A DNA stretch of 43,031 nt from Elusimicrobiota bacterium (GTDB lineage Bacteria; Elusimicrobiota; Elusimicrobia; FEN-1173), in contig JAKLDV010000008.1 in NCBI GenBank assembly GCA_022703335.1, positions 1-43,031 on the forward strand, in the 5' to 3' direction. This document shows, piece after piece, positions 6,436 through 43,031 of this stretch (position 1 is the first letter of the stretch; the number at the start of each line of letters is the position of its first letter). The position numbers and the translations under genes were made by a program. A model generated the notes under the pieces. It made no database searches, had not been told where the DNA came from, and saw only the letters and a program-made list of their open reading frames with translations.

Positions 6436-7311
6436 ATGAGTTCATCGTCTTCGTCTAACGTCCCCAGTTCCACGCCGCCCTCTCAGGGTTTCGTGGAGAC
6501 GGGGCCTGGTCTTCCGCGGGATTACGGCGTTACCCGGCTTGTCCTCATCCCCCGGGACCCTCAGTGGATGCACGCGTATTGGGAGGTGGCCCCCTACACG
6601 TGGCAGGAGGCGGAGAAAAATTTCGGGTCGGCGGTGCGGACCTCCGGCCGGGCCGTGCTGCGGCTGCATTGCGGCGACGGCGCGTCCGCCAAGACGTTCG
6701 ACGTCAACATCCACCTGGACGCGCGCAACTGGTACATCTTCAGTCCGGCGCGCGGAGGCCTGTGGCACGCCGAGCTGGGGATGCTCCTGCCCGACGGGCG
6801 CTTTGTGCTGCTGGCGATCTCCAACGAGATCCGCCTGCCCACCGGGCAGGTGTCCGACGTGATCGACGAGAAGTGGGCGGTGATGAAGGCCGACTGGGAG
6901 AGGCTTTTCGAGCTCTCCGGCGGCGGCAAGCTCGGCGCCGGCTCTCTGGATGTGGCCCGCATGTTGGCCCAGCGATGGGAACTGCTCCGCGCCGTGTCCT
7001 CCTGGATGGGCGCGCCGGGCGGCGCGTCGTGGTCCGGCATGCCCGGGTCTTCCTGGGCGCGGCCGCCCCAGGCGCACAAGGGGTTCTGGCTGGAGGCCGA
7101 CTGCGAACTGATCGTCTACGGAGCCACCGAACCGGACGCCAAGGTCACCATGCAGGGCAACCCCATCACGCTGAACCCGGACGGCACCTTTTCCTTCCGT
7201 TTCGCCCTCCCCGACGGGAAACTGGAGATCCCGATCCACGCGACGAACCGCGACGGCGACATGTCCAAGAGCGTGGATTTCACCGTCACGCGAGCCACCC
7301 AGCGGACTTGA
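6436..7311 (+). CDS. DUF4912 domain protein
   Basis: The 291-residue product has a Ser/Pro-rich start and then the DUF4912 domain (about 25-140), marked by VTRLVLIPRDPQWMHAYWEV, a pattern of aromatic residues and an HLDARNWYIF segment. DUF4912 proteins are of unknown biochemical role; the fold resembles carbohydrate-binding beta-sandwich modules. The C-terminal part contains a second beta-rich segment (ELIVYGATEPDAKVTMQG...NPDGTFSFRFALPDG) like a bacterial Ig-type repeat. GTGGAGGAG precedes ATG 6436. The next gene is a GH57 branching enzyme, so a part in glycogen handling is a reasonable inference. Confidence 0.85.
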   Translation: MSSSSSSNVPSSTPPSQGFVETGPGLPRDYGVTRLVLIPRDPQWMHAYWEVAPYTWQEAEKNFGSAVRTSGRAVLRLHCGDGASAKTFDVNIHLDARNWYIFSPARGGLWHAELGMLLPDGRFVLLAISNEIRLPTGQVSDVIDEKWAVMKADWERLFELSGGGKLGAGSLDVARMLAQRWELLRAVSSWMGAPGGASWSGMPGSSWARPPQAHKGFWLEADCELIVYGATEPDAKVTMQGNPITLNPDGTFSFRFALPDGKLEIPIHATNRDGDMSKSVDFTVTRATQRT

Positions 7312-20501: not shown

Positions 20502-21746
20502 ATGACGGGAACCTTCCATCCGCCGCGCCATCGCACCGCGGCGACCTACCTGGGGTGTCTGGCGGGCCTTTTGACGTCTCTGGCGACGTTGGTCTTGCTC
20601 TCCGGATTTCCACCTCCGGGGACGTTTGCCGCCCTGTTTCCCTCAACGAATCCCCGCGTGGCGGAGGCACGTTATTGGAGAACCGCCTGCGCCGGTGTCC
20701 AATGCGGCCTGTGTCCGTTCCATTGTTTTTTGCCGGAAGGGGCCCGGGGCCGTTGCCGCGTCCGGATGAACGTCGGCGGCCGGTTGAAAACCCTCGTCCA
20801 GAACAGCCCCGTGTCCGTCCACATCGACCCCATCGAAAAGAAACCCGTGTTCCATCTCTTGCCGGGAACGGGCATTTATTCCATCGCCACCGTCGGCTGC
20901 AACCTCGCCTGCGATTTCTGCCAGAATTGGGAAATTTCTCAGGCTTATCCGGAACAGATCAAAGACGGGGTCGTGGTGCCGAGGGAGGTGCGGTTCGCGG
21001 GGCGGAGGCAGGGCCGGCCGACGTTCGAGTTGCGGCAGGAGGCGGTCCAGACGATGACCCCGGCGGAGGTCGTCCGGGCCGCGCGGGACACGGGGTGTCG
21101 TTCCATCGCCTACACGTATTCGGAGCCGGTCGTTTTCTTTGAATATGTCCTGGAAACCGCCAAGCGGGCCAAAGAGAACGGGTTGCGGAACGTGATGGTA
21201 TCGGCCGGATACATCAGTCCGGGACCGTTGGCCGAGCTCGCGCCCTATCTCGACGTGGTTAAAATCGACCTGAAGGGTTTCGATGAGGGATATTACCGGG
21301 GGACGGTGGGGGGAGAGCTTCGGTTTGTCTTGCGGACGTTGTTGGAATTGAAAAAACTCGGCGTGCTGACGGAGATCGTCAACCTGGTGGTGCCGACGTT
21401 GAACGATAAAGAGGAGGATTTCGACCGGCTTTCCCGGTGGGTCCGGGAGAACCTCGGGGAAGAGACGCCGGTGTTCTTTTCCAGATTCACCCCGCAATAC
21501 AAGGCCACCCATCTGCCGGCGACTCCGCTGGAGACCCTGGAGCGGGCCTACGCCTCGGCCCGCCGCGCCGGACTGAAATTCGTCTATCTGGGAAATGTGC
21601 CCGGCCATCCGGCCGAATCCACCTATTGTCCCCGGTGTGGAGGAGCCCTTGTGCGGCGGCACGGCTATGCGGTTCTGGAGAACCGGATCGGAAAAGACGG
21701 GACATGCCCGGACTGTCACAAGAAAATACCCGGTCGATGGGGTTGA
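20502..21746 (+). CDS. amrS: AmmeMemoRadiSam system radical SAM enzyme
   Basis: The 414-residue product has an N-terminal hydrophobic segment (about 14-35). A Cys-rich region follows (C63, C68, C71, C75, C85), then the radical SAM motif CNLACDFCQNW (C133, C137, C140). The sequence GTGIYSIATVGCNLACDFCQNWEIS and the later YTYSEPVVFFEY, VVKIDLKGFDE and LVVPTLNDKEED match the AmmeMemoRadiSam family, related to pyruvate formate-lyase activators. The C-terminus carries two CxxC pairs (YCPRCGG, CPDCHKK) like a zinc ribbon. The Memo-AMMECR1 fusion lies 17 bases downstream. The substrate of the system is unknown. The hydrophobic start is unusual for a cytosolic iron-sulfur enzyme. Confidence 0.93.
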   Translation: MTGTFHPPRHRTAATYLGCLAGLLTSLATLVLLSGFPPPGTFAALFPSTNPRVAEARYWRTACAGVQCGLCPFHCFLPEGARGRCRVRMNVGGRLKTLVQNSPVSVHIDPIEKKPVFHLLPGTGIYSIATVGCNLACDFCQNWEISQAYPEQIKDGVVVPREVRFAGRRQGRPTFELRQEAVQTMTPAEVVRAARDTGCRSIAYTYSEPVVFFEYVLETAKRAKENGLRNVMVSAGYISPGPLAELAPYLDVVKIDLKGFDEGYYRGTVGGELRFVLRTLLELKKLGVLTEIVNLVVPTLNDKEEDFDRLSRWVRENLGEETPVFFSRFTPQYKATHLPATPLETLERAYASARRAGLKFVYLGNVPGHPAESTYCPRCGGALVRRHGYAVLENRIGKDGTCPDCHKKIPGRWG

Positions 21747-31380: not shown

Positions 31381-34073
31381 TTTTTCTTGAAAAGTTTGTC
31401 CAGGGCTTTTTGGCCCTGTTCGATGGTTTTCAATATTTGTTTTTCGCCCTGTACGGGAAGCGAAGGTTTCTGATCCTTGTCCTGCGGGGATTGGAGGGAG
31501 TCTTTCAACCGTTCCACGCCTTTCTTCAAGAGGTTCTGGGCCGCTTGTCGAGCGGCGCTGTCCAGGTCCACGGCGACGGCGGGGTCCGTCAGGGGACCCT
31601 TGATGACGGCCTCCAGCGTGAGAGCGCCGTCTTCTCCGATGACCCAGTCACCGACGGTCCCGAGGGCGGATTCCATCGGCAGTTTGAACGTGGCGCGCAG
31701 GTCCGCGAGCAGGGTGGAGAGTTTCAGCGTCCCGCGGACGGCGATGTCCATCTGTGAACTGTCGATCATGAAATCCCGCGTTTCTAGGAGGCCGTCCTTC
31801 ATTTGGAAATGAGACGACAGGCGGCTGTAGGTGAGGTCGGCGGCGTCCTTTTTTAGGATTTTATTAATTTTGACGGCCAACGGGAGGTTATAAATTTTAC
31901 CGTCGTCGGCGGAGAGCTCCGCCGTGCCGTTCCAGTGGAGCATCTCGGAATCGACCTCGGTCAGGTTCCACGCCAGGCGGAACCGGCGGCCGATGTAATT
32001 GGGGTGGGAGAGGGTCTCTATCTTGAAATGGCCCTCGGCTTTGGCCAACGAAAGGGCCGGTTCCGTCGCGGCCGGCGCGCCGGCCGGTCGGACGGGAACG
32101 GCCGATGAGGATGTTTCAGAAAAAACCTTCTGCAGCTTTCCGGCATCCAGCGTTGCGAGCTCGCCTTCGCACCAGAGTTCCGGTTTGGAGAAGTTCTTCA
32201 GCTGGGAGCGGACGAGGAGGGGCTCGCCGTTGAATCGGCCTTTCAGGAGAGAGGTTTCCATCGAATCCATGGAAAACGCCACGTCGCCTTCGAACTCCGA
32301 GAAGACGAGCCCGGCCTTGGGGACCGCCCCGAAATTTTTGAGCGTCAGGGAGCCGCTGATCCGCGGGGCGGCGAGCGTGCCGGCGAGTTGGAGATCCAGC
32401 GAGGTCCGGCCCGAAAGGCCGTATTCTTTTATGAGCGGGACCGCCGGAGAGAGCGACTCAAGGGAGACCGGGGGGATTTTGAAGGAGAGCCCCATGTCGG
32501 CTGTTCCGGGGAGGTCCGAAATGTTTCCGTGGCCCGTGAGGGACAGGGACTCCATCGACAGTTGGAAATTTTTCAGCAGGAGATTCTTGCGGTCGGACAA
32601 CCGAACGTCGGCCAGGAGGGCGAGGGGTTTTCCGGAAGGTTTTTGGAAATAGCCGGCATAGGAGACGGCCGCCTCGTCGGCGAGAAGTTGGAAGCGGAAC
32701 GAGGGCCGGTCCAGGGTGCCGCCCACGTTTATTTTTGCGCTCAGGGGGCCGGAAAGGCGCAGGTCGGCGGGGAGAGGGGGGGCGCTTGTCGGTAGTTCGA
32801 GTCCGCCGAACTCCCCGCGGACATCGAGGGGAGAACCGCCCACGGGGTCTTTTATCGTGATTTTGCCGTCCAGACGCAAAGGGGCGTTTTCCCGTTTTTT
32901 CACCAGGGAAGCGTAGCGGAACGTCGCCCGGTCGCCGGTGAAATGGAAGGACATCGTCGCTTGTTTTAGGGTGCCGCGCGCCTCCACTTTCCCTTGCAGG
33001 GGGCCGGTGAGGGAGAGGTCGGGAAAGAGGGGGGACTTTTGCGCGCTCAGGTTGGAGACGGCCAGGACGCCGGCAAAGCCGATTTTTTTCAGCGGGTCGG
33101 TCAGAGAGAGATCGGGGGCCACGGCGGCCGTCAGGCCGGCGCCGCGGAGGGAGAGGTCCCCCCGAATCGACATTTTTTCCAGGTTGCCGTTCAGATGCAG
33201 TTCGCCGCGGAGGTCCATGTCCGAGAGGCCGATGGGCATGGAGAAAAAGGGAACGAGGTCTTGCGCCCTCAGCGGTTCCGGATGGAGCCGGAGATCGATC
33301 GAGGGGGAATGGAAGTCGGTTATCCGGCCGCCGGCGGAGACGGTCGTTTTCCCGGTTTTTAGACGGAACTCATCCAGCTCGAGGGAGCCGTTCGGCGAGG
33401 GGAGCAGCGTTCCCCGCAGGAGGACCTGCGCTTCGAACGGTTTTCCGGAGAGGGACCCGTTGAGACGCCCGGCGAGGCGGATGCGACCGGGGGTGGTCAA
33501 CGAAAAACCGGAAACCGAGAGGTCCATGTCCGTCATCGACAGGTTCACGGCGGCGGAGGATTTGTCCACGAAGCGGATGTCCGCTTTCCGAACGTCGAGT
33601 TGTTGAATAAAAAGGGACGGGGCCGCTTCGGATCGGGGAACGCTCCCGGGCGCGGGGACGACGGCCGGCGCCGTGCCCGAAGACAGGAGGTCCGAGTAAT
33701 TATAGGAACCGTCGGCGAAACGGATGAGGCGGATATCCGGTTTTTCCAAAGTCAGGCTTTTGAGGACGAGGTCGCCGCGCAGGAGCGGCCAAAGACGGGG
33801 TTTCACCGACAGGGATTTTCCCGAGATGAACGTTCCGGCCTGCAGGTTCGGCGGTTCGGAAAGGGTGAATCCATCGAGGCGGAGGCCCCGGAAGAGTCCC
33901 ACGGAGACGGCATCGAACCGCAGTTCGCGGTTCAAATGTCGGCGGGCCTGTTCTCCGGCGATCTCCGCCAATTTCGGAGGAGGGAAACGCCATTGGAGGA
34001 ACAGGGTCAGCCCCAGGATCCCGAAGACCAGGATCCCGATAACGACGGCGGTGAGGAGCAGCGCTTTTTTCAT
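31377..34073 (-). CDS. AsmA family envelope protein
   Basis: The 898-residue product has one N-terminal membrane helix (about 4-27) and then a long periplasmic domain of repeated beta-strand segments. The AsmA/YhdP hallmarks are visible: the AsmA N-terminal pattern after the helix (HLNRELRFDAVSVGLFRGLRLDGFTLSEPP, LVLKSLTLEKPDIRLIRFADGSYNYSDLL) and a C-terminal ALTLEAVIKGPLTDPAVAVDLDSAARQAAQNLLK. These proteins are thought to bridge inner and outer membranes and carry phospholipids. It is the first gene of a minus-strand operon of three. Confidence 0.9.
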   Translation of the reverse strand: MKKALLLTAVVIGILVFGILGLTLFLQWRFPPPKLAEIAGEQARRHLNRELRFDAVSVGLFRGLRLDGFTLSEPPNLQAGTFISGKSLSVKPRLWPLLRGDLVLKSLTLEKPDIRLIRFADGSYNYSDLLSSGTAPAVVPAPGSVPRSEAAPSLFIQQLDVRKADIRFVDKSSAAVNLSMTDMDLSVSGFSLTTPGRIRLAGRLNGSLSGKPFEAQVLLRGTLLPSPNGSLELDEFRLKTGKTTVSAGGRITDFHSPSIDLRLHPEPLRAQDLVPFFSMPIGLSDMDLRGELHLNGNLEKMSIRGDLSLRGAGLTAAVAPDLSLTDPLKKIGFAGVLAVSNLSAQKSPLFPDLSLTGPLQGKVEARGTLKQATMSFHFTGDRATFRYASLVKKRENAPLRLDGKITIKDPVGGSPLDVRGEFGGLELPTSAPPLPADLRLSGPLSAKINVGGTLDRPSFRFQLLADEAAVSYAGYFQKPSGKPLALLADVRLSDRKNLLLKNFQLSMESLSLTGHGNISDLPGTADMGLSFKIPPVSLESLSPAVPLIKEYGLSGRTSLDLQLAGTLAAPRISGSLTLKNFGAVPKAGLVFSEFEGDVAFSMDSMETSLLKGRFNGEPLLVRSQLKNFSKPELWCEGELATLDAGKLQKVFSETSSSAVPVRPAGAPAATEPALSLAKAEGHFKIETLSHPNYIGRRFRLAWNLTEVDSEMLHWNGTAELSADDGKIYNLPLAVKINKILKKDAADLTYSRLSSHFQMKDGLLETRDFMIDSSQMDIAVRGTLKLSTLLADLRATFKLPMESALGTVGDWVIGEDGALTLEAVIKGPLTDPAVAVDLDSAARQAAQNLLKKGVERLKDSLQSPQDKDQKPSLPVQGEKQILKTIEQGQKALDKLFKKK

Positions 34074-34143
34074 ATCGGGGACAGGAGACTCCGACGAAAG
34101 GATACGGGATGGCGTCCGGCCGCGGGCGCGCTTTTAAAGATAA

Positions 34144-34149
34144 ATTATA
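34144..34149 (-). promoter_or_regulatory. Probable -10 box for the AsmA operon
   Basis: TATAAT is read on the minus strand at 34149-34144, about 70 bases before the AsmA start. No good -35 box is seen at the right distance. Confidence 0.45.
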
Positions 34150-34191
34150 GACCATTTTTATCGAGAGTTACCCGTTCCGCGGCGACAGATT

Positions 34192-34200
34192 TGTTATAAT
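34192..34200 (+). promoter_or_regulatory. Extended -10 promoter of the radical SAM operon
   Basis: TGTTATAAT (34192-34200) is a TGnTATAAT extended -10. A start near 34207 gives a leader of about 105 nt before GTG 34313. It stands back to back with the AsmA -10 box. Confidence 0.65.
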
Positions 34201-34312
34201 TTTACCTCGGTTTCAGTTCCATCGAACATCCCCAAGCCCTTTCGTTTTGGCGATATGTTCCGCGAGTCAACCGTGATGAATCAAGAGACAGGTTTCTGGA
34301 GGACGGGAATCC

Positions 34313-35563
34313 GTGTCAGGGCCAAAATCCAAACAGTTGAGGTATCTCCAGGAGGCCGTTCGGTTAAATCGAGCGCGCTACGAAGGCCTCCGCGAGGTTC
34401 ACCGCGCCCCCCTGCGGAAACGGAAATTATTGAGGTCTCTGCTGCGCGGAGGGGTGCGGGAGCTGAACGGCGGAAAAACGTTGTACGTGGGGCAAATGTC
34501 CCCGTCTTGTCGGCTCTGTTTGAGAGGGAAATCCACGAGTTTCAAGTTGACCGTCCAATGCAACAGGGGCTGTTTTTATTGTCCGAACCTGAAAGGGGAC
34601 AAAAACACTCCGCGCCCCGAAAACTTCATTGCGTACCAGGCCCCGTCGTTGAAAGAGGTGATCAGATCCGTCGAGGACGCCCGTTCTCGGGGGTGCAGCA
34701 TCACCGGGGGAGAACCGTTCCTGGAATTCCCGCGGACGCTGGTGTACATCCGGGCCTTGCGCCGCCGGTTCGGCCCGCGGTTCCGCATCCATCTCTACAC
34801 CAACGGACTCCTGGCCACCGACCGGAGATTGAGGCGGTTGAAGCGCGCCGGGCTGGACGAGATCCGTTTTGACCTGGCGGCCATCGGGTACAAGACCGCC
34901 CCCGTCTACCGGGCCTTGAAATATTTTGAGCACGTCGGCGTCGAGATCCCCGCGGTGCCGGGCGATGAGGAAAAGGTAAAAAAAATAATGCTGGAGCTGG
35001 ACGCGGCGGGGGTCCGCTATCTCAATCTGAACGAACTCTATTTCATACGGGCGAACGTTTCGCGATTGAAGGAGCATGGTTTTTCCGCGGTCTGCGAGGG
35101 GAGGCGCCCCGTGCACGACGGGTTCGAGGGGAGAATGTATCCGGTCAAGGAAAGCGAGCCGGCCGCCGCCCGCTTGCTGGCCTTTGCCGCAAAGAACCTC
35201 CGGCGGCTTTCGGTGCATTACTGCACCTGCGCCGCAAAACGGAACAACCACGATCAGCAGCTGAAGCGGCTCGCCCGAACCTGCCGCAAAAGCCATGAAC
35301 GGATAGACCCGACCGGATTGCTTGAAAAACTGGTGGTGCGCACGGACGACCCCCGCCGGACGGAAAGAGAACTTCTGGCGGCCGGATTCCCGAGGAAACG
35401 GATACATTATTCCCGGTCCAAGAAGCGTTTGGAGGCGAGCGTGGATTGCGCCAAGAGGCTTTCCTCCCGAGGTTATCTATACGCCTTGGTCAAGGTCCTG
35501 CCGGCCGACGCGTTCGCGGATGTTTCCGAACATCCTCTGGAATCGGGGGCGGGGCGGCTCTAG
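34313..35563 (+). CDS. Radical SAM protein, first of a paralogous pair
   Basis: The 416-residue product has the radical SAM motif CNRGCFYC (C83, C87, C90), preceded by an extra SPSCRLC pair (C66, C69) that may bind an auxiliary cluster. ITGGEPFLEF is the GGE strand that holds SAM. The middle part (YTNGLLATDRRLRRLKRAGLDEIRFDLAA) is a normal partial barrel. A C-terminal extension from about residue 290 contains HYCTC and a basic tail. The protein that follows shares this plan. GTG 34313 follows GGAGG by about nine bases. It opens a five-gene operon with a B12 radical SAM enzyme and a glycosyltransferase, so a natural-product or peptide modification is likely; the substrate is unknown. Confidence 0.88.
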   Translation: MSGPKSKQLRYLQEAVRLNRARYEGLREVHRAPLRKRKLLRSLLRGGVRELNGGKTLYVGQMSPSCRLCLRGKSTSFKLTVQCNRGCFYCPNLKGDKNTPRPENFIAYQAPSLKEVIRSVEDARSRGCSITGGEPFLEFPRTLVYIRALRRRFGPRFRIHLYTNGLLATDRRLRRLKRAGLDEIRFDLAAIGYKTAPVYRALKYFEHVGVEIPAVPGDEEKVKKIMLELDAAGVRYLNLNELYFIRANVSRLKEHGFSAVCEGRRPVHDGFEGRMYPVKESEPAAARLLAFAAKNLRRLSVHYCTCAAKRNNHDQQLKRLARTCRKSHERIDPTGLLEKLVVRTDDPRRTERELLAAGFPRKRIHYSRSKKRLEASVDCAKRLSSRGYLYALVKVLPADAFADVSEHPLESGAGRL

Positions 35564-35602
35564 CCCGTTCGCCGACCGCCTCCCGCGACAATCATTCTTC
35601 CC

Positions 35603-36916
35603 ATGTTCCCGCCCTCCCTTGAACGCGAAAAACGGTTCGATTTTTGCGGTTGCCCCTCGGTAAAGTCTCGCGAGGCGCGCGGTCTCGTGCGAACGCGGGA
35701 CCGGCTTGTCGCCGAGTGCCTGTCCATGGGCGCCCGGGCGCATGGCGGGAATCCGAATAAAATCCATGCCGGGCCGCTGTCTCCGGGATGCCGGTTGTGC
35801 GCCGAAGGGAAGTGGTCCTGCCTGTTCATGGGGCGGTTTTGCCGTCGAGGCTGTTTTTTCTGCCTGCAGTCGCAGCGGGAGAAAAAGGCGGCGCTCCGCG
35901 AAAAGCCCACCGGTTTTAGGCCCCGCTCCGCCGAGGAATACCGTGAATTCGTCCGCCGGGCCGGATATCGGGGAGTGGCTTTTTCGGGGGGCGAACCCCT
36001 CTGGTTCTTCGACGAATTGATCGAGTATGTGACGGCTTTGCGGAAAGGCGCCGGCCCGCGTCTCGCCATCTGGGTCTATACGAGCGGCGATTTTATGACC
36101 GAGCGGAGGTTGAGGGAATTGAAGAGCGCCGGGGTGGACGAGTTGCGGTTCAACATCGCCGCGCGGAATTACAGCCTGACCGCGCTCTCCCGGGCGGCCA
36201 AACACTTCGAGAATGTGACCGTTGAAATCCCCGCCATCCCGGAGGACACGACCCGGCTTTTGGCGCTGTTGCCCCGGTTGCGTTCGGCGGGGGTCAAATA
36301 TCTGAATTTGCACCAGCTGACGGCGTCCGCCCACAACAGCGACGCCTTGGCCCGTCGGGGCTATCGGATCCACAAAAACGGGGAGGGGTACCCGGCGGTG
36401 GGCCCCGTCGTGGAATCCGAACTGGCGGCGTTGCGCCTCCTGCGCGAGGGGTTGGCGTCCGGCCCGCCCCTGCCCATCCACTATTGTTCCGCCCGCTATA
36501 AGGAACTTTTCCAGGCGCGCGCGCACCGTCAGCGGTTGGCCGAATATTTCACCGGCGAAACGGCGGCACTTCGGCGCGCGTCGAAGGTGACGTCCGCGGG
36601 ATATCTGCGGCGACGGGTCCCCGACGACGGCCGGCGGACGGTTCCGTCGAAGGTGTGCTATCTCGATTTCCGTTCCCCCGCCGATTCGGGAAACGAACAC
36701 GGCGTTTTTAGCCGGGGGAGGATCGTCAAAGAGGTTCCGTTGAAGTCCGCCGGGGAACGGCGTCTCTTTGAGAAATTCTTTCTGTCGGCGGTGGCGGACG
36801 AGTCCGTCGTCGGGGCGATCCTTGCGGAAAACAAAAAGGATTCCGGGGTTGCGCGGTTCCTGCGGCGATTTGAGAATCTGGAATATCTGCCGGTTTCCTT
36901 GGACCGGTATTGTTGA
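35603..36916 (+). CDS. Radical SAM protein, second of a paralogous pair
   Basis: The 437-residue product has CRRGCFFC (C80, C84, C87) and the same upstream pair, SPGCRLC (C63, C66), as its neighbour, plus FSGGEPLWF. The N-terminal FDFCGCP adds two more Cys. A central DELRFNIAARNYSLTALSRAAKHFENVTVEIPAIPED aligns with the first protein, and PIHYCSARYKELFQ corresponds to its HYCTC region. The pair clearly came from one ancestor. The C-terminus differs and may set substrate choice. It starts 39 bases after the first gene and ends 14 bases before the third. Confidence 0.88.
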   Translation: MFPPSLEREKRFDFCGCPSVKSREARGLVRTRDRLVAECLSMGARAHGGNPNKIHAGPLSPGCRLCAEGKWSCLFMGRFCRRGCFFCLQSQREKKAALREKPTGFRPRSAEEYREFVRRAGYRGVAFSGGEPLWFFDELIEYVTALRKGAGPRLAIWVYTSGDFMTERRLRELKSAGVDELRFNIAARNYSLTALSRAAKHFENVTVEIPAIPEDTTRLLALLPRLRSAGVKYLNLHQLTASAHNSDALARRGYRIHKNGEGYPAVGPVVESELAALRLLREGLASGPPLPIHYCSARYKELFQARAHRQRLAEYFTGETAALRRASKVTSAGYLRRRVPDDGRRTVPSKVCYLDFRSPADSGNEHGVFSRGRIVKEVPLKSAGERRLFEKFFLSAVADESVVGAILAENKKDSGVARFLRRFENLEYLPVSLDRYC

Positions 36917-36930
36917 CGCCGGGGGGCGAC

Positions 36931-38067
36931 GTGAAGAACGTCTTCTACGACTTCGTTGAGCGGGTTGTCCGGGAAAAGACGGGCCATTTCATCAACTGGC
37001 CGCTCGCCGGGGTTTTGGCGCGGAAAAAATTGTGGCGGAAACTGTTCAACTACCTGATCGTGCAGGCGCAGTTCCACTTTCAGACGTCGTGGGTCTTCGG
37101 CCGACCCTACTACCTGTGTTTCGATCCCGTGACCGCGTGCAATTTGAAGTGCCCGCTCTGCAAGATCGGGACGATGGAGTTCCCAAAGCCGCGCGAGCGC
37201 ATGGACATGGCCGTCTTTCGAAAGATATTGGACACGCTGGGGCCGGAACTGCTGCAGGTCGACATCTACGTGCACGGGGAGCCGTTGCTGAACCCCGACG
37301 TTTACGAAATGATCTCGTACTGCAAGAAATACAAAACGACGGTCAAGATGAGCAGCAACCTTCAGGAGGTGGACGCCGACCGTCTCGTCGGCTCCGGCCT
37401 GGACCAGCTCTTCGTGGCGATCGACGGGGCGACCCAGGAGACCTATGAAAAGTACCGGATGGGTGGGTCGCTGGAGAAGGCCTTCACCAACGCGCGGAAC
37501 ATCCTGGCGGCCCGCCGCCGGGCGGGAAAAAAGACGCCGCTCGTGACGTGGAAATACATCGTCTTCCGGCACAACGAGGCCGAGATCGATTTGGCGAAAA
37601 AGGCGGCGGCCGAGATGGGGTTCGATGAGATCGATTTTAACGGGGCCATTGTGAAGGACGCCGCCGATCCGACCCAGATGCACACGTGGGTCCCGCAAAA
37701 CCCGGAACACAGCCTCTATGCCCCGCCGGCGACCGCGCCGTCTCCCGCCGCCCCCGCCTTGCAGAAGAGCGTCGACTTGAGCGTGAGGAAACCGCAATGC
37801 AATTGGCCGTGGATCTCGGCCACCCTGGATCCGCGCGGCAACGTGCAAACCTGTTGCGTCTCCGTCCGGCCCGAAGAGGACATGGGCAACATCATGGAAT
37901 CGCGCTGGGGGGCGATATGGAACAACGCGCGATACCGTCGCGCCCGCCGTTTTCTGGCCCGGCATCGTCCCTCCGCGGCCGGATGGAACATCCCGTGCGA
38001 GCGGTGTCGGGCGGCCGGGAACATCAATCTGTCCCTGACCGAACACTTGCTGCGGAGGGGGCTGTGA
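36931..38067 (+). CDS. Radical SAM/SPASM-like protein
   Basis: The 378-residue product has the radical SAM motif CNLKCPLC (C70, C74, C77) after FDPVTA. VDIYVHGEPLLNPDVYEMI and MSSNLQEVDADRLVGSGLDQLFVAIDGATQETYEKYR are strands of the barrel. A C-terminal SPASM-type Cys set follows (PQCNWPWISATLDPRGNVQTCCVS...GNIMESRWGAIWNNARYRRARRF...IPCERC) for an auxiliary cluster. Proteins with this plan include peptide maturases and anaerobic sulfatase-maturing enzymes. GTG 36931 is preferred over TTG 36913, which overlaps the previous stop. The stop overlaps the next start by four bases (GTGA). Confidence 0.9.
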   Translation: MKNVFYDFVERVVREKTGHFINWPLAGVLARKKLWRKLFNYLIVQAQFHFQTSWVFGRPYYLCFDPVTACNLKCPLCKIGTMEFPKPRERMDMAVFRKILDTLGPELLQVDIYVHGEPLLNPDVYEMISYCKKYKTTVKMSSNLQEVDADRLVGSGLDQLFVAIDGATQETYEKYRMGGSLEKAFTNARNILAARRRAGKKTPLVTWKYIVFRHNEAEIDLAKKAAAEMGFDEIDFNGAIVKDAADPTQMHTWVPQNPEHSLYAPPATAPSPAAPALQKSVDLSVRKPQCNWPWISATLDPRGNVQTCCVSVRPEEDMGNIMESRWGAIWNNARYRRARRFLARHRPSAAGWNIPCERCRAAGNINLSLTEHLLRRGL

Positions 38068-40049
38068 GGCCGCCGCGTTCTCGTGCCGTGCGGGTGGCGC
38101 TCGTCGTCATGCCGTTCCAGCCCGTGGAGACGCCCAATCTCGGGGCCTCCATCCTGAAAAGCCGTCTGCGCCGGGCGGGGGTGGAATGTCGCGTCCTTTA
38201 TTTCAATGTGGAGTTCGCCCGGATCGTCGGCCTGGAGAGATACGCGCGCCTCCTCGGTCTGAAGATAGCGCCGGAGATCCTTTTTTCTCATGCCCTTTTC
38301 GGGAAAGCCGGGACGCGGGAAATCCGATATCCCCGGCCGCTGGGGGCGGTCCTGACGAAGGCGGGGATGTTCGGCGAGGAGATACGGGCGGGCCTGCGCG
38401 GGGACATGGCGGCCGTCGAGAGGTTGGCGGAACGGCAGGCCCCGCGGTTCCGGGAAGCCTGCCTGTCGGCCGCGTCTTGGGGCGACTACGACGTGGTCGG
38501 TTTCTCGAGCATTTTCAACAGCCACGTCGCGTCACTGGGGTTGGCGCGGGACATAAAGGAACGGCATCCCGATACCAAAATCGTTTTCGGCGGATCCAAC
38601 GTGGAGGGGATCATGGGACGGGAAACGCTGCGGGCGTTTCCCTGGGTCGATTTTGTGGTCGGCGGGGAGGCGGAGGATACGTTTCCCGCCCTGTTGTCGG
38701 CGTTGAAAGCGGGACGTTCCCCCGACGCGATCCCCGGCGTTTCTTATCGGGACGCCCGGGGTCTCCACGGGAACCATTCCTTGCCGCCGCCGGTCGACCT
38801 GGGGGAGAGCGTCCCGCCGGATTTCTCGGATTACTTCGGCGCCTTGGAAAGAGGGGGGCTGCGGAAATCCCTGCGGCCGGTCGTCGTTTTCGAGAGCGCC
38901 CGCGGTTGTTGGTGGGGGGAGCGCGGTCCCTGCGCGTTCTGCGGGCTGAACGGGCTGTCGATGACGTTCCGCCGGAAGCCGCCCCGGAAGATCCTGCGGG
39001 AGATTTTCGACGCGATGAGGAGATACCGCGTCAGCGATTTTCACGCCGCGGACCGCGTCTGGGATCCCGCCCACGCGACGACGTTTTTGCCGCTCCTCTC
39101 CCGCGAACTGAAGAAGAGAAGGCTCGATGTGGGCATGCTCTACGAGGTGCGGCCCACCATAACGAAAAAACATCTGGACCTTCTCGCCCGGGCGGGCGTC
39201 ACCGACGTGCAGCCCGGCCTGGAAACTCTCGATACCGCCATCCTGAAGCGGATGAACAAGGGGACGACGGCCCTTCGGAACGTGCAGACGTTGAAACACT
39301 GCCGGGAGGCGGACATCTTTCCGCGCTGGAATTTCCTTTACGGCCTGCCCGGCGAAAAAGCGTCCGCGTATCGGCGCATGGCCCGGCTGTTGCCGAAGAT
39401 ACAGCATCTCCCGCCGCCCACGATGGTGACGCCGGTGCGCATCGAAAGGTTCAGCCCCTTGCACCGGCACCCGGGGCGTTTCGGATTGAAGAACCTCCGC
39501 CCCGCCGCGCTTTACGGGTGGGCCTATCCCCAAAGCCGGGTCCGTCTCAAAGACCTGGCGTATTATTTTGAAGGCCAATTCCGGAAGGACTGCGTCCCCC
39601 CCTGGGCGGCGATCGCGTCGTTCCGGAGACGCCTGGAGCGGTGGAACGCCCTCTCCCGCCACAGCTTTTTGTTCCACCGGCATGCCTGGGATTCGTTGAT
39701 CGTTTACGACCATCGGCCGCGCTCCCTTTCCCAGGGGGTGCGCCCTTTCCGGATACGCCGCTATGAGGGGACGTCGTCCGCCGAGATATACGAGGCGTGC
39801 GCCGCCGGCCGGACGACCCGGGAGGTGGAGCGGACATTGAAACGTCGACGCCCGAAGGGGAGGTTTCCTCAAGTAGAGATTCGGCGGGCGTTGCGCCGCT
39901 TCGTGCGGGACGGGATCATGCTGGAGGAAGGCGGCCGCTTCCTCGCGCTGTCGCTGCCGTTCGCCGCCTGTCCCCCGGCCGTTAAAAGGAAAGTGATGCT
40001 CCTGGAAAAGATGCGCGGCATTTTCCATGAGGGGAGACGGGCCGAATAA
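38064..40049 (+). CDS. Cobalamin-binding radical SAM enzyme of the RiPP-maturase (methyltransferase) type
   Basis: The 661-residue product has an N-terminal B12-binding Rossmann region (about 8-220; VGFSSIFNSHVASLGLARDIKERHPDTKIVFGGSNVEGIMGRE, then DFVVGGEAEDTFPALL). The radical SAM domain has the unusual C-x7-C-x2-C spacing in RGCWWGERGPCAFCGLNG (C282, C290, C293). The sequence LYEVRPTITKKHLDLLARAGVTDVQPGLETLDTAILKRMNKGTTALRNVQTLKHC and WNFLYGLPGEKASAYRRMARLLPKIQHLPPPT are typical of the family that methylates ribosomal peptides (RiPP maturation radical SAM protein 1). Residues after about 500 form a further helical region and a winged-helix-like end. It overlaps its neighbours on both sides. 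Confidence 0.9.
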   Translation: MRPPRSRAVRVALVVMPFQPVETPNLGASILKSRLRRAGVECRVLYFNVEFARIVGLERYARLLGLKIAPEILFSHALFGKAGTREIRYPRPLGAVLTKAGMFGEEIRAGLRGDMAAVERLAERQAPRFREACLSAASWGDYDVVGFSSIFNSHVASLGLARDIKERHPDTKIVFGGSNVEGIMGRETLRAFPWVDFVVGGEAEDTFPALLSALKAGRSPDAIPGVSYRDARGLHGNHSLPPPVDLGESVPPDFSDYFGALERGGLRKSLRPVVVFESARGCWWGERGPCAFCGLNGLSMTFRRKPPRKILREIFDAMRRYRVSDFHAADRVWDPAHATTFLPLLSRELKKRRLDVGMLYEVRPTITKKHLDLLARAGVTDVQPGLETLDTAILKRMNKGTTALRNVQTLKHCREADIFPRWNFLYGLPGEKASAYRRMARLLPKIQHLPPPTMVTPVRIERFSPLHRHPGRFGLKNLRPAALYGWAYPQSRVRLKDLAYYFEGQFRKDCVPPWAAIASFRRRLERWNALSRHSFLFHRHAWDSLIVYDHRPRSLSQGVRPFRIRRYEGTSSAEIYEACAAGRTTREVERTLKRRRPKGRFPQVEIRRALRRFVRDGIMLEEGGRFLALSLPFAACPPAVKRKVMLLEKMRGIFHEGRRAE

Positions 40050-41236
40050 TGGGCGACCTTTCGGGCCCGGACCCGATCCGTGTGGCGGTTTTCTCCTATA
40101 CGCTGGACGACCCGACCTGCCATCGCTACCTGGACATGTTGGCCGCGGCCGAGCGGCCTTCCCACATAAAACTGACCGTGTGGACCACCTTCCGACCGAC
40201 GGCGAAGACGCTGCGCTCCTGGCGCCCGCGCCTTTCCTGGCACAGTTTTTTTTCCTCCCGCCGCCGTCCGAGCCCGCGCCGTTACGCCCGGGTCTTCGCC
40301 GATCACCTTCGGCGGGAGAACGTTTCCATCGTGCATTGGGCATTTTTGAGGGAGCTCGGTTTTTCCGCCTGGCGGGCGTTGACCCGGGCGGCCCGGCCCC
40401 AGGCAAGGACGGTCTGGACCCACCACATCGTTTCCGAGATGACGGCGGCCTATCGGAAATCAGCGGCCTTCCGGGGACTGGACAGGATCGTCGTCCTTTC
40501 TCGGGCGATGAAAAAGCATTTGCTCGCCGATCACCCCGCCGGACCGCCGTCCCGCTTCCGGGTCATCCCCAACGGCACGGACGCGTCCTATTGGCGCCGG
40601 GGCGGGTTTTCCGGGAAAAGGGACCGCCGGCTTTTTCTGGCGGTCGCTCGGATCAACGCGGACAAGGGTCTCCATCAGCTGCTGTGGGCGTTTTGCGGGA
40701 TCCAAAAAGAATTTCCGGACGCGCGCCTCTTCGTCGCGGGGAAGGTCGATCTTCAGCCGGATTATTACCGTCGGCTGAAAAGGTTGGCGGAGAAGCTGGG
40801 AGTGCGGAGCCACGTGACTTTTTTGGGCGAGGTCACGCCGGAGACGTTGCGCCGTCTCTATCACCGGAGCCTGTGCTGTGTCCAGCCTTCGCTGAACGAA
40901 GGGGTCAGTTTCGCGGCCCTCGAGGCGTGCGCGGCGGGATGCCCGCTGGTTTTGACGCGGACCGGAGGGATCGAGGAGATTTTACGGCACGGGCGGGACT
41001 GCCTTTTTGTGCCGAAGGGGGACCCCGACCTCTTGCAGAAGGCGATGCGGCGGATGTTGGTGGAACCGGGACTGAGGGAGCGCTTGGCCCGGAACGCCCG
41101 CCGCCGGGCGCTTGCGCAGGATGAGCGGGCGGTGTCGCGCGCCTACATCCGGCTTTACGAGGAGTTGGCCGCCGAGGGGCGGTCCGCACGGGGTTTCGAG
41201 AGGAGACTTGAACCGAAAACCGCGGAATTCCTATGA
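40049..41236 (+). CDS. GT4 family glycosyltransferase
   Basis: The 395-residue product is a GT-B glycosyltransferase. The N-terminal domain has ARTVWTHHIVSEMTAAYRKS and RIVVLSRAMKKHLLADHP. The C-terminal domain has RRLFLAVARINADKGLHQLLWAF, a SHVTFLGEV segment and the donor-binding QPSLNEGVSFAALEACAAGCPLVLTRTGGIEEI with the E-x7-E pattern of retaining GT4 enzymes. It would move a sugar from a nucleotide donor to an acceptor in the cytoplasm. It overlaps the B12 enzyme gene by one base (TAATG), so it probably acts on the same product. Confidence 0.92.
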   Translation: MGDLSGPDPIRVAVFSYTLDDPTCHRYLDMLAAAERPSHIKLTVWTTFRPTAKTLRSWRPRLSWHSFFSSRRRPSPRRYARVFADHLRRENVSIVHWAFLRELGFSAWRALTRAARPQARTVWTHHIVSEMTAAYRKSAAFRGLDRIVVLSRAMKKHLLADHPAGPPSRFRVIPNGTDASYWRRGGFSGKRDRRLFLAVARINADKGLHQLLWAFCGIQKEFPDARLFVAGKVDLQPDYYRRLKRLAEKLGVRSHVTFLGEVTPETLRRLYHRSLCCVQPSLNEGVSFAALEACAAGCPLVLTRTGGIEEILRHGRDCLFVPKGDPDLLQKAMRRMLVEPGLRERLARNARRRALAQDERAVSRAYIRLYEELAAEGRSARGFERRLEPKTAEFL

Positions 41237-41310
41237 TGTGACGGGGGGCATCTCGGGAAAACAAGTAAATTGATTTCAGCCCCCCACCGGGCTCGACTTC
41301 GCTGCGCCCT

Positions 41311-41504
41311 GCTCGAACAACGCGGTTGTTCTTCGAGCGACCGTCCCAACCTCAGACGGAAGAGGGACGGCCCCGCAACACCTCCGCCGCGACGGCGGGA
41401 CCTGTAACTCAGGCCCCGCGTTGCCGCTGGGCAACGTCCCGGTTTGTCGGATGGGGCACGTGTTCGGTGGTGGGGGCCGGAGGGAGTCGAGAAGCTGCTG
41501 GCCC
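41311..41504 (+). other. Structured intergenic region, possible RNA element
   Basis: The 305-base gap 41237-41541 has no convincing gene. It holds several stems: GCTCGAA (41311-41317) with TTCGAGC (41332-41338); CCGTCCC (41341-41347) with GGGACGG (41364-41370); an outer CGGGAC (41396-41401)/GTCCCG (41436-41441) enclosing CTG-TAACTCAG and GTTGCC-GCTG-GGCAAC (41420-41435), a three-way junction; and GGGCC (41474-41478) with GGCCC (41500-41504). It does not match a riboswitch, RNase P, SRP, tmRNA or 6S RNA that I know. It may be a leader for the next two genes. Confidence 0.45.
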
Positions 41505-41541
41505 TCACGGGATACTCCTCATGTGACGAAACGGAGAGACC

Positions 41542-42051
41542 ATGGACGATAAAACAATGAATCCCCCGGCGCCGTCCGGACCGGAACGCCGCAAACTGCC
41601 CGACGCGCCCACGCGCAAAGTGCTTTTTCTCTGGATTGCGCTCATGCCGGCGGTGTTGTGGGTCCTGCAGAAGTTCTTCCACGAACGGTTCTATCAATAC
41701 GACGGACAGCGTTGGGGACTTTCGCCGCTGGGGAGCGCTTGCGTGTTCGGCGCGGCGGCGTTGCTGGCGGCGGGGCTGTGTTCCGCTTTTTACAAGGTGA
41801 AGTATGGGAAGTTCCATTTCATCGCCGTGGCCCGTGTGGTGCGCGGCATCCTCTCGCTTTTCCTCATCGCCGTTGTTTTCGTCTGGCCGATCGCCATGAT
41901 GATCGTGGCCATCAATCCCGTCCACGCCGCCTATCTGGCGGTGCTGGTGGCGCTGGGGATCGCGGGGCTGACGATCCTCATCCGGCTGGCGATGCCGCCG
42001 GAGGCGGGGTTCTGGCGGGACTGGATTCACGACACCCTGCTTCGATGGTGA
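41542..42051 (+). CDS. Membrane protein of unknown function
   Basis: The 169-residue product has a Pro-rich, charged start (about 1-28) and four hydrophobic helices near residues 28-43, 62-83, 95-120 and 127-147. No motif I recognise is present. The charged end HDTLLRW is cytoplasmic if the count is right. ATG 41542 follows GGAGAG. A phospholipase-D-like gene starts seven bases after its stop, so the two are probably one unit, which the structured region upstream may control. Confidence 0.75.
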   Translation: MDDKTMNPPAPSGPERRKLPDAPTRKVLFLWIALMPAVLWVLQKFFHERFYQYDGQRWGLSPLGSACVFGAAALLAAGLCSAFYKVKYGKFHFIAVARVVRGILSLFLIAVVFVWPIAMMIVAINPVHAAYLAVLVALGIAGLTILIRLAMPPEAGFWRDWIHDTLLRW

Positions 42052-42058
42052 TATCGGC

Positions 42059-42703
42059 ATGAGGGAGAGCACACGTTTCGGAGCGCTGTGCGCGGTTCTC
42101 TTGGCCGTGTCCGCCGCCGCGTTCGGGGAGGAAGTGGAGCTGGGCGAGGCCCCGTCCCTGGATCCCTACGAGATTTCCATCAATCCCGACGAGAACACCG
42201 CCGGGACGCCCGTGAGCGTGGACGTGGCGGAGTTCGGGGCCTCCACCGTCACCAGCGTCTATTTCTCACCGGAAGACGATTGCGACAACGTCATCATCGG
42301 CTGGCTTTCCCAGGCGCGCCGCTCCATCGACGCGGCGGTCTTCCTCATCAGCCATCCCGGCATCGCCGACGCCCTGGCGCAGGCCCACCTGAAGGGCGTG
42401 AAGGTCCGGGTCATCATGGACGGGGAGCAGGCGGATTTCAAGGTCGCGTCGGACGAATTTCTGGAGCGGGCCGGGGTGCCGCTGCGGCGGAGTTTTTCGA
42501 AGGGGAGCATGCACAACAAATTCGCCGTCATCGACGGCCGGACGGTGTTGACCGGGAGCTACAACTGGACGGTGGGCGGAGCCTCCGTCAACGACGAGAA
42601 TCTCATCGTCCTGCATCAGGCCGCCGCCGTGTTCCAAAGGAAGTTCGACCAGCTTTGGGCCCGGTGCGTCGCGGGGACCCCGTCGCGCCGAAGGTTCGAA
42701 TAG
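42059..42703 (+). CDS. Exported phospholipase-D-like protein (single HKD motif)
   Basis: The 214-residue product has a signal sequence (FGALCAVLLAVSAAAFG). After a spacer the PLD fold begins (VYFSPEDDCDNVIIGWLSQARRSIDAAVFLISHPGIADALAQAHLKGVKVRVIMDGEQ) and ends with MHNKFAVIDGRTVLTGSYNWT, an H-x-K-x4-D motif. One motif per chain is the plan of Nuc-type nucleases and related proteins, which work as dimers. It could cut nucleic acid or a lipid in the periplasm. It lies seven bases after the membrane protein gene. Confidence 0.9.
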   Translation: MRESTRFGALCAVLLAVSAAAFGEEVELGEAPSLDPYEISINPDENTAGTPVSVDVAEFGASTVTSVYFSPEDDCDNVIIGWLSQARRSIDAAVFLISHPGIADALAQAHLKGVKVRVIMDGEQADFKVASDEFLERAGVPLRRSFSKGSMHNKFAVIDGRTVLTGSYNWTVGGASVNDENLIVLHQAAAVFQRKFDQLWARCVAGTPSRRRFE

Positions 42704-42771
42704 AATCTACTAAAGTTTAATAGATAAAAATCGTTTACTAAAACATGGACAAACCGACGTTCGGCGCCGCG

Positions 42772-42800
42772 TTGACCGACGGAACCCCTTTTGCTACTAT
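42772..42800 (+). promoter_or_regulatory. Promoter of the AtpZ/AtpI gene
   Basis: TTGACC (42772-42777) and TACTAT (42795-42800) have a 17-bp spacer. The expected start falls at or very near the GTG at 42807, so the message would be leaderless. Confidence 0.7.
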
Positions 42801-42806
42801 GGCCGC

Positions 42807-43031
42807 GTGAACGTGGATTTTCCGAACGACGAAAAACGTCCGTTCCGCCGGTTTTCCCGCCCCCCGCGATGGCAGAGCGTCTATGGGGGCACCCAGTTGG
42901 CGGTGTCCGTTCTGTTCGGCTTGTTCACCGGCTATTACATAGACAAACGGTATGCTCTTTTCCCCTGGCTGACGTTGCTGGGCGCGGCCGCCGGACTGGC
43001 CTTGGGGCTCTACAGTTTCCTCCGGCCGTAT
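42807..43031 (+). CDS. AtpZ/AtpI family protein (5' part only)
   Basis: The first 75 residues are visible and the frame stays open at the right edge. After a basic start (DEKRPFRRFSRPPRW) come two helices around a turn: QLAVSVLFGLFTGYYIDKRYALFPWLTLLGAAAGLALGLYSFL. The G-Y-Y-I-D-K turn and the G-x3-G helix are the pattern of AtpZ/AtpI, small proteins coded at the head of F-type ATP synthase operons. They help assemble the c ring or carry magnesium. GTG 42807 is chosen because it falls at the promoter start site; there is no ribosome site. GTG 42813 is a possible alternative. Confidence 0.8.
   Translation, partial: MNVDFPNDEKRPFRRFSRPPRWQSVYGGTQLAVSVLFGLFTGYYIDKRYALFPWLTLLGAAAGLALGLYSFLRPY

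Follow-up and report, generated by a model that had tools for sequence, protein, structure and literature searches.

What do four radical SAM enzymes and a glycosyltransferase act on when they are encoded in one compact operon and no precursor peptide gene accompanies them? The question is raised by a locus of an Elusimicrobiota bacterium, located within the 43,031-nt stretch of DNA analysed here (GCA_022703335.1, contig JAKLDV010000008.1, positions 1-43,031, forward strand), which we refer to as the window. The original prediction proposed a pathway that modifies a peptide or a small core and then glycosylates it, with a substrate that is either coded elsewhere or not a peptide at all. We consider it moderately probable that the products of the five genes, A to E, are RiPP-type tailoring enzymes for a Lys/Arg-rich peptide that carries the motif YxxPxLxxxGxL and is coded elsewhere in the genome.

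Operon architecture

The five genes follow one another closely on the + strand. Genes A (34313..35563, 416 aa) and B (35603..36916, 437 aa) encode paralogous radical SAM proteins (PF04055, 63.1 and 51.5 bits), gene C (36931..38067, 378 aa) a radical SAM/SPASM protein (PF04055 and PF13186 above cut-off), gene D (38064..40049, 661 aa) a B12-binding radical SAM C-methyltransferase, and gene E (40049..41236, 395 aa) a GT4 glycosyltransferase. These coordinates reproduce the spacing originally described, with gaps of 39 bases between A and B and of 14 between B and C, an overlap of four bases (GTGA) between C and D, and an overlap of one base (TAATG) between D and E. Each of the five is called strongly by a home-made coding model for which the window served as training sequence, the start of C being placed at a TTG at 36910, 21 bases before the GTG at 36931. 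All five genes are intact and retain their catalytic motifs. Upstream of A, the extended −10 element TGTTATAAT (34192..34200, +) is presumed from its match to the consensus to be the operon promoter; it is the sole match to TGNTATAAT in the window, with 0.04 expected by chance, and this part of the original description likewise stands. Because the element is absent from the list returned by a sigma-70 scan of the window, it would be an extended −10 without a good −35 match.

Two further features of the window lie outside the operon. The 305-base intergenic stretch that follows E (41237-41541) recurs in part on contig C76 (85%), C211, C2 and others, and is probably an interspersed repeat. Another radical SAM domain is encoded at 20502-21746 (PF04055 at 20883-21422).

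Gene D and its RRE-like domain

Judged by its sequence, D clearly belongs to the RiPP C-methyltransferase family rather than among lipid or cofactor enzymes, as had been proposed. It scores 570.7 bits against TIGR03975 (cut-off 281.85), covering positions 1-606 of the 606 in the profile, and we place it there because the next-best NCBIfam family, BchE, reaches only 78.4 bits against a cut-off of 481.35. The other lipid or cofactor B12 enzymes considered, HpnJ (59.3 bits vs a cut-off of 577.6) and BzaD (61.9 vs 450), are equally far from acceptance. Pfam recognizes Radical_SAM and a B12-binding domain (PF02310 above cut-off), and the C-x7-C-x2-C spacing reported earlier for the fourth protein is seen in D as C282-x7-C290-x2-C293, all three Cys being conserved without exception across an alignment of 30 sequences.

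The AlphaFold2 model of D (pLDDT 87.9) ends in a C-terminal domain, at about residues 536-615, whose elements run strand-strand-strand-helix-helix-helix, the order required of RREs (PMC12710340). Profile comparison gives a suggestive likeness to PqqD (E 7e-5, probability 62), with no match to Pfam PqqD. Together, the predicted model and the profile comparison suggest that the RRE-like region (residues ~530-640; 39651..39983, +) may be a leader-binding RRE. The remainder of D best matches the folds of OxsB, TokK, CysS and TsrM, all B12 radical SAM enzymes, and of AprD4; because the leading structural matches (VIA-align) stop near residue 530-560 and barely cover the C-terminal domain, nothing is concluded from them about that domain.

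Recurrence of the gene set

A homologue of D at 1e-40 is present in 5 of 98 related genomes, the window's genome counted. The original prediction had staked itself on the five genes being conserved as a set, and here it failed: the complete A-E set was found nowhere else among the genomes compared, and no relative of A, B, C or E at 1e-5 lay within 10 kb of the 80 nearest D homologues from named genomes, in a neighbourhood search that confirmed the presence of the D matches themselves. Elsewhere in the window's own genome, locus C236 holds an A/B-like gene, four D-like genes and genes for a GT4, a GT2, a YdjC protein and a sulfotransferase, and in G086:C105 A-like, GT4 and D-like genes form a single-strand run; in both loci the A/B-like, D-like and GT4 genes stand together with a short peptide of the kind described below. 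Relatives of C in the peptide loci are weakly similar at most.

The D of the window and the D of C252, another locus of this genome, are sisters (48% identity, support 100/100), and the D-like enzymes from peptide loci, ten out of ten, fall in one group (99/96) apart from 26 others; this group also includes one Acidobacteriota enzyme with no YxxP peptide nearby.

Genes A, B, C and E

The claim that all four radical SAM proteins have distinct Cys plans holds for D alone, since A, B and C share C-x3-C-x2-C; A and B are 38% identical. Pfam finds Radical_SAM in all three and additionally SPASM in C, and SPASM proteins often act on peptides. No named NCBIfam family lies above cut-off for A, and C falls below every specific NCBIfam cut-off. 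The A/B family, which lacks a curated name and which we take to be possibly COG2108, occurs in 34 of 294 genomes of the window's phylum. An archaeal homologue of A, from Methanoperedens, is alike in the C-terminal part too, as judged by eye, and adjoins a gene resembling polyprenyl diphosphate synthase (L217:1471-2496). Sequence searches of the PDB returned weak matches only, to BtrN for B and to cytosylglucuronate decarboxylase for C, and a predicted structure of B built from an alignment with A only (pLDDT 57) was unusable.

Members of the A/B family also keep company with the His-Xaa-Ser system. A relative directly adjoins HxsB in G297, and another closes the HxsD-HxsB gene group in G026. 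His-Xaa-Ser systems with an A/B-family gene in the same group are located at L182:802-4404 and L199:7030-9317, with HxsB above cut-off in both and additionally HxsD-like and HxsC4-like proteins in L182. The likeness ends there: A and B score far below the HxsC cut-off (TIGR03977, 30.6 and 20.6 bits vs 267.9), so they were rejected as HxsC, and the operon has neither HxsB nor HxsD. The closest relative of B (44%) is found in L065 (G061:C51), where two A/B members are grouped with further radical SAM genes, an AhbD-like gene and genes resembling methyltransferases. Locus C258 of the window's genome (L219, L220) packs about 17 radical SAM genes into about 26 kb, several with B12 domains and some related to C; comparable runs from a number of other genomes in the class are those of L222, L223, L225, L226 and L227.

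Gene E encodes a GT4 with a Glycos_transf_1 domain (PF00534, 123.9 bits) and an N-terminal D-P-T-x-x-R motif (DDPTCHR), resembling several GT4s that lie next to the peptides (SDPTYNR, SDPTYHR).

The search for a precursor

A ribosome-binding-site and coding scan of 33500-43031 found no precursor ORF, and no YxxP peptide, intact or decayed, was detected in the window by motif or by a 25-peptide profile run in all six frames (best score 4.7), in agreement with the original view that no precursor gene is evident nearby. A scan for short genes with known leader types had also been proposed. Over the whole genome, the nitrile-hydratase-like leader of proteusins (TIGR03793) had no match at E 1, and the Nif11 leader gave one sub-threshold match on another contig (17.8 vs 23.8 bits); none thus exceeded the cut-off, and YxxP-type peptides were found instead.

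These peptides are short (about 35-50 aa), rich in Lys and Arg, share the motif YxxPxLxxxGxL and are encoded in the same gene groups as D paralogues. The motif is present in six D loci, namely C252 and C236 of the window's genome and, in its relatives, three of G086 and one of G088, the distance to a D-like gene ranging from a few hundred bases to about 8 kb. The C252 peptide (35 aa, MRRKVRSSKPAGKKTYKKPSITKHGRLHVYASPPF) adjoins the closest paralogue of D; a strong ribosome-binding site (AAGGAG, ending seven bases ahead of the ATG) precedes it, so that it could be made independently of the operon. Scans found neither a sigma-70 promoter nor a terminator around it. The C236 peptide is 41 aa long. 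In a leave-one-out profile test each of the six peptides ranked 1-4 among 53,465 ORFs, with E-values that were weak (0.08 to 2.4) for all but C236. The peptide of G086:C80 surfaced by motif scan, gene calls being over-extended in places in these GC-rich loci.

A profile of the six peptides, run on 340 genomes of the window's phylum, retrieved 36 distinct peptides, the window's genome yielding only those of C236 and C252. An E-like GT4 lies within 1.5 kb of 22 of the 36, mostly directly downstream on the same strand. Control loci (1.56 Mb) contained zero such peptides, a contrast that may be overstated as they are mostly from other phyla. Synonymous divergence (pS) exceeds nonsynonymous (pN) in 42 of 42 peptide pairs, although choosing pairs by protein likeness favours this outcome. 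G005, a genome from the same order, repeats the C236 grouping of peptide, GT4, YdjC and GT2 genes, and PqqD-domain proteins accompany two of the peptides.

Two other kinds of product were met in these loci. At L056:7558-7986 and L275 ~6670-7119 a YxxP peptide is fused to, or lies just before, an S74 endosialidase-chaperone-like domain; the long G086:C105 product is such a fusion of the peptide motif with an S74 chaperone domain. At L059:8102-8245 and L060:5951-6094 (G057 and G040) a 47-aa peptide (MNPTLTENKTKLRLNKEELLAKLAAGPASVNGGDKPNRNTIFVAVGC and a close relative) lies directly beside a D-like gene and is likely the precursor of another leader type; being of that type and absent from the window's genome, it was discarded as the operon's substrate.

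Comparison with known systems

The nearest enzymatic parallel is offered by PoyB and PoyC of the polytheonamide pathway, the proteusin enzymes of TIGR03975: D is a full-length member of the same family, with the B12 domain and the Cx7Cx2C motif (motif per PMC5682303), and C-terminal RRE fusions have been reported among proteusins (PMC7470986), as the RRE-like C-terminal domain of D would be. The operon differs in that D is accompanied by a GT4 and by A/B-type radical SAM enzymes, and the nitrile-hydratase-like leader of proteusins is absent here, the peptides beside the D paralogues having YxxP leaders instead.

The leaders resemble those of lasso peptides, with which they share the motif YxxPxLxxxG. 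The rhodolasso model (cut-off 30) gives one relative 21.9 bits, and the neighbour of that relative scores 53.2 bits on a lasso PqqD model, both values being sub-threshold; on lasso precursor models the C252 peptide scores 12.6 bits vs 33 and that of C236 has no match. In contrast to lasso peptides, the clusters here contain radical SAM, B12 and GT4 enzymes, and no asparagine-synthase-like lasso cyclase was found by Pfam among the genes examined in C236, C252 and G086:C105. A second parallel is provided by the LPP peptides of Bacillota, which are non-lasso RiPPs whose YxxP leader motif is bound by an RRE (PMC13381572); they differ in consensus (YxxPxVLxHQxIxFETxxS) and host phylum, and the text of that paper makes no mention of radical SAM enzymes (PMC13381572).

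Proposed pathway

For the substrate gene, the 35-aa peptide of C252 is the likeliest candidate and the 41-aa peptide of C236 the second. The peptide would be supplied in trans, probably from C252, and its leader would dock on the RRE-like C-terminal domain of D. By analogy with its family, D would then methylate the core, the part after the leader motif, at an unactivated carbon, with methylcobalamin as the methyl donor and a 5′-deoxyadenosyl radical taking the hydrogen as in PoyC, which methylates a peptide valine and makes 5′-deoxyadenosine and whose kind has the Cx7Cx2C motif (PMC5682303). Additional radical reactions, on the peptide or on its sugar, may be the task of A, B and C, and E would add the sugar. 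Of the earlier guesses, that of a substrate coded elsewhere has become the favoured reading, with peptides lying beside D paralogues, and a non-peptide substrate is kept as its rival. The modify-then-glycosylate pathway gains support from the peptides present in D-paralogue gene groups and beside E-like GT4s; that the window's enzymes act on the C252 and C236 peptides is a link that we infer.

Alternative explanations

The product could instead be a surface glycan, glycolipid or small metabolite, in which D C-methylates a sugar or polyol, A-C perform radical chemistry and E transfers the result. We regard this as unlikely, though it accounts readily for a window without a precursor and for the glycan-type genes (GT2, YdjC, sulfotransferase, epimerases, UbiA) around the D paralogues; moreover, the fold of D resembles AprD4 and OxsB too, and D homologues of Nitrospina have no small ORF nearby. 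Such a product sits poorly with the TIGR03975 score of D, which is far above the cut-off, with its RRE-like C-terminal domain, and with the presence, within the gene groups that hold its closest paralogues, of peptides bearing an RRE-type motif.

A second alternative, which we judge improbable, is that A-E are RiPP tailoring enzymes that make no use of the C252 and C236 peptides, their own precursor having been lost or having diverged beyond recognition. Each of these peptides is nearer its own D copies than the operon, neither motif nor profile finds a peptide in the window, and the repeat directly downstream of E makes a rearrangement there possible; yet no decayed peptide is seen in any frame of the window, and the intact genes with their catalytic motifs argue that a substrate still exists. 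Finally, it is similarly doubtful that the short peptides are small basic regulatory or structural proteins travelling with glycan clusters, their link to D and E being incidental: their composition is very basic, glycan genes often surround them, 14 of the 36 have no E-like GT4 nearby and none reaches the cut-off of a curated precursor model (NCBIfam for six peptides, Pfam for three), but their motif fits the RRE-bound [Y/W]xxPx[L/V/I/F/A] (PMC13381572), the rhodolasso score of 21.9 bits belongs to one of them, and several have PqqD proteins and B12 radical SAM enzymes as neighbours.

Outlook

Of wider reach than the operon itself is the family of peptides and GT4s, found beyond the window. 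Glycosylation is uncommon among RiPPs (PMC8120280). It is possible, and we propose it tentatively, that these genes represent a RiPP class widespread in the phylum and without a name in the libraries searched, with a short basic peptide, a lasso-like YxxP leader (often TKHG), no lasso cyclase, B12 radical SAM C-methyltransferases that carry an RRE, and a GT4 of its own, for which a second, precursor-less operon would act in trans in the genome studied here. To our knowledge, no RiPP combines C-methylation by a B12 radical SAM enzyme with glycosylation. The peptides recur in many genomes of one phylum and give concrete peptide-enzyme pairs for heterologous expression, and the system makes it testable whether a RiPP tailoring operon can use a precursor coded on another contig.
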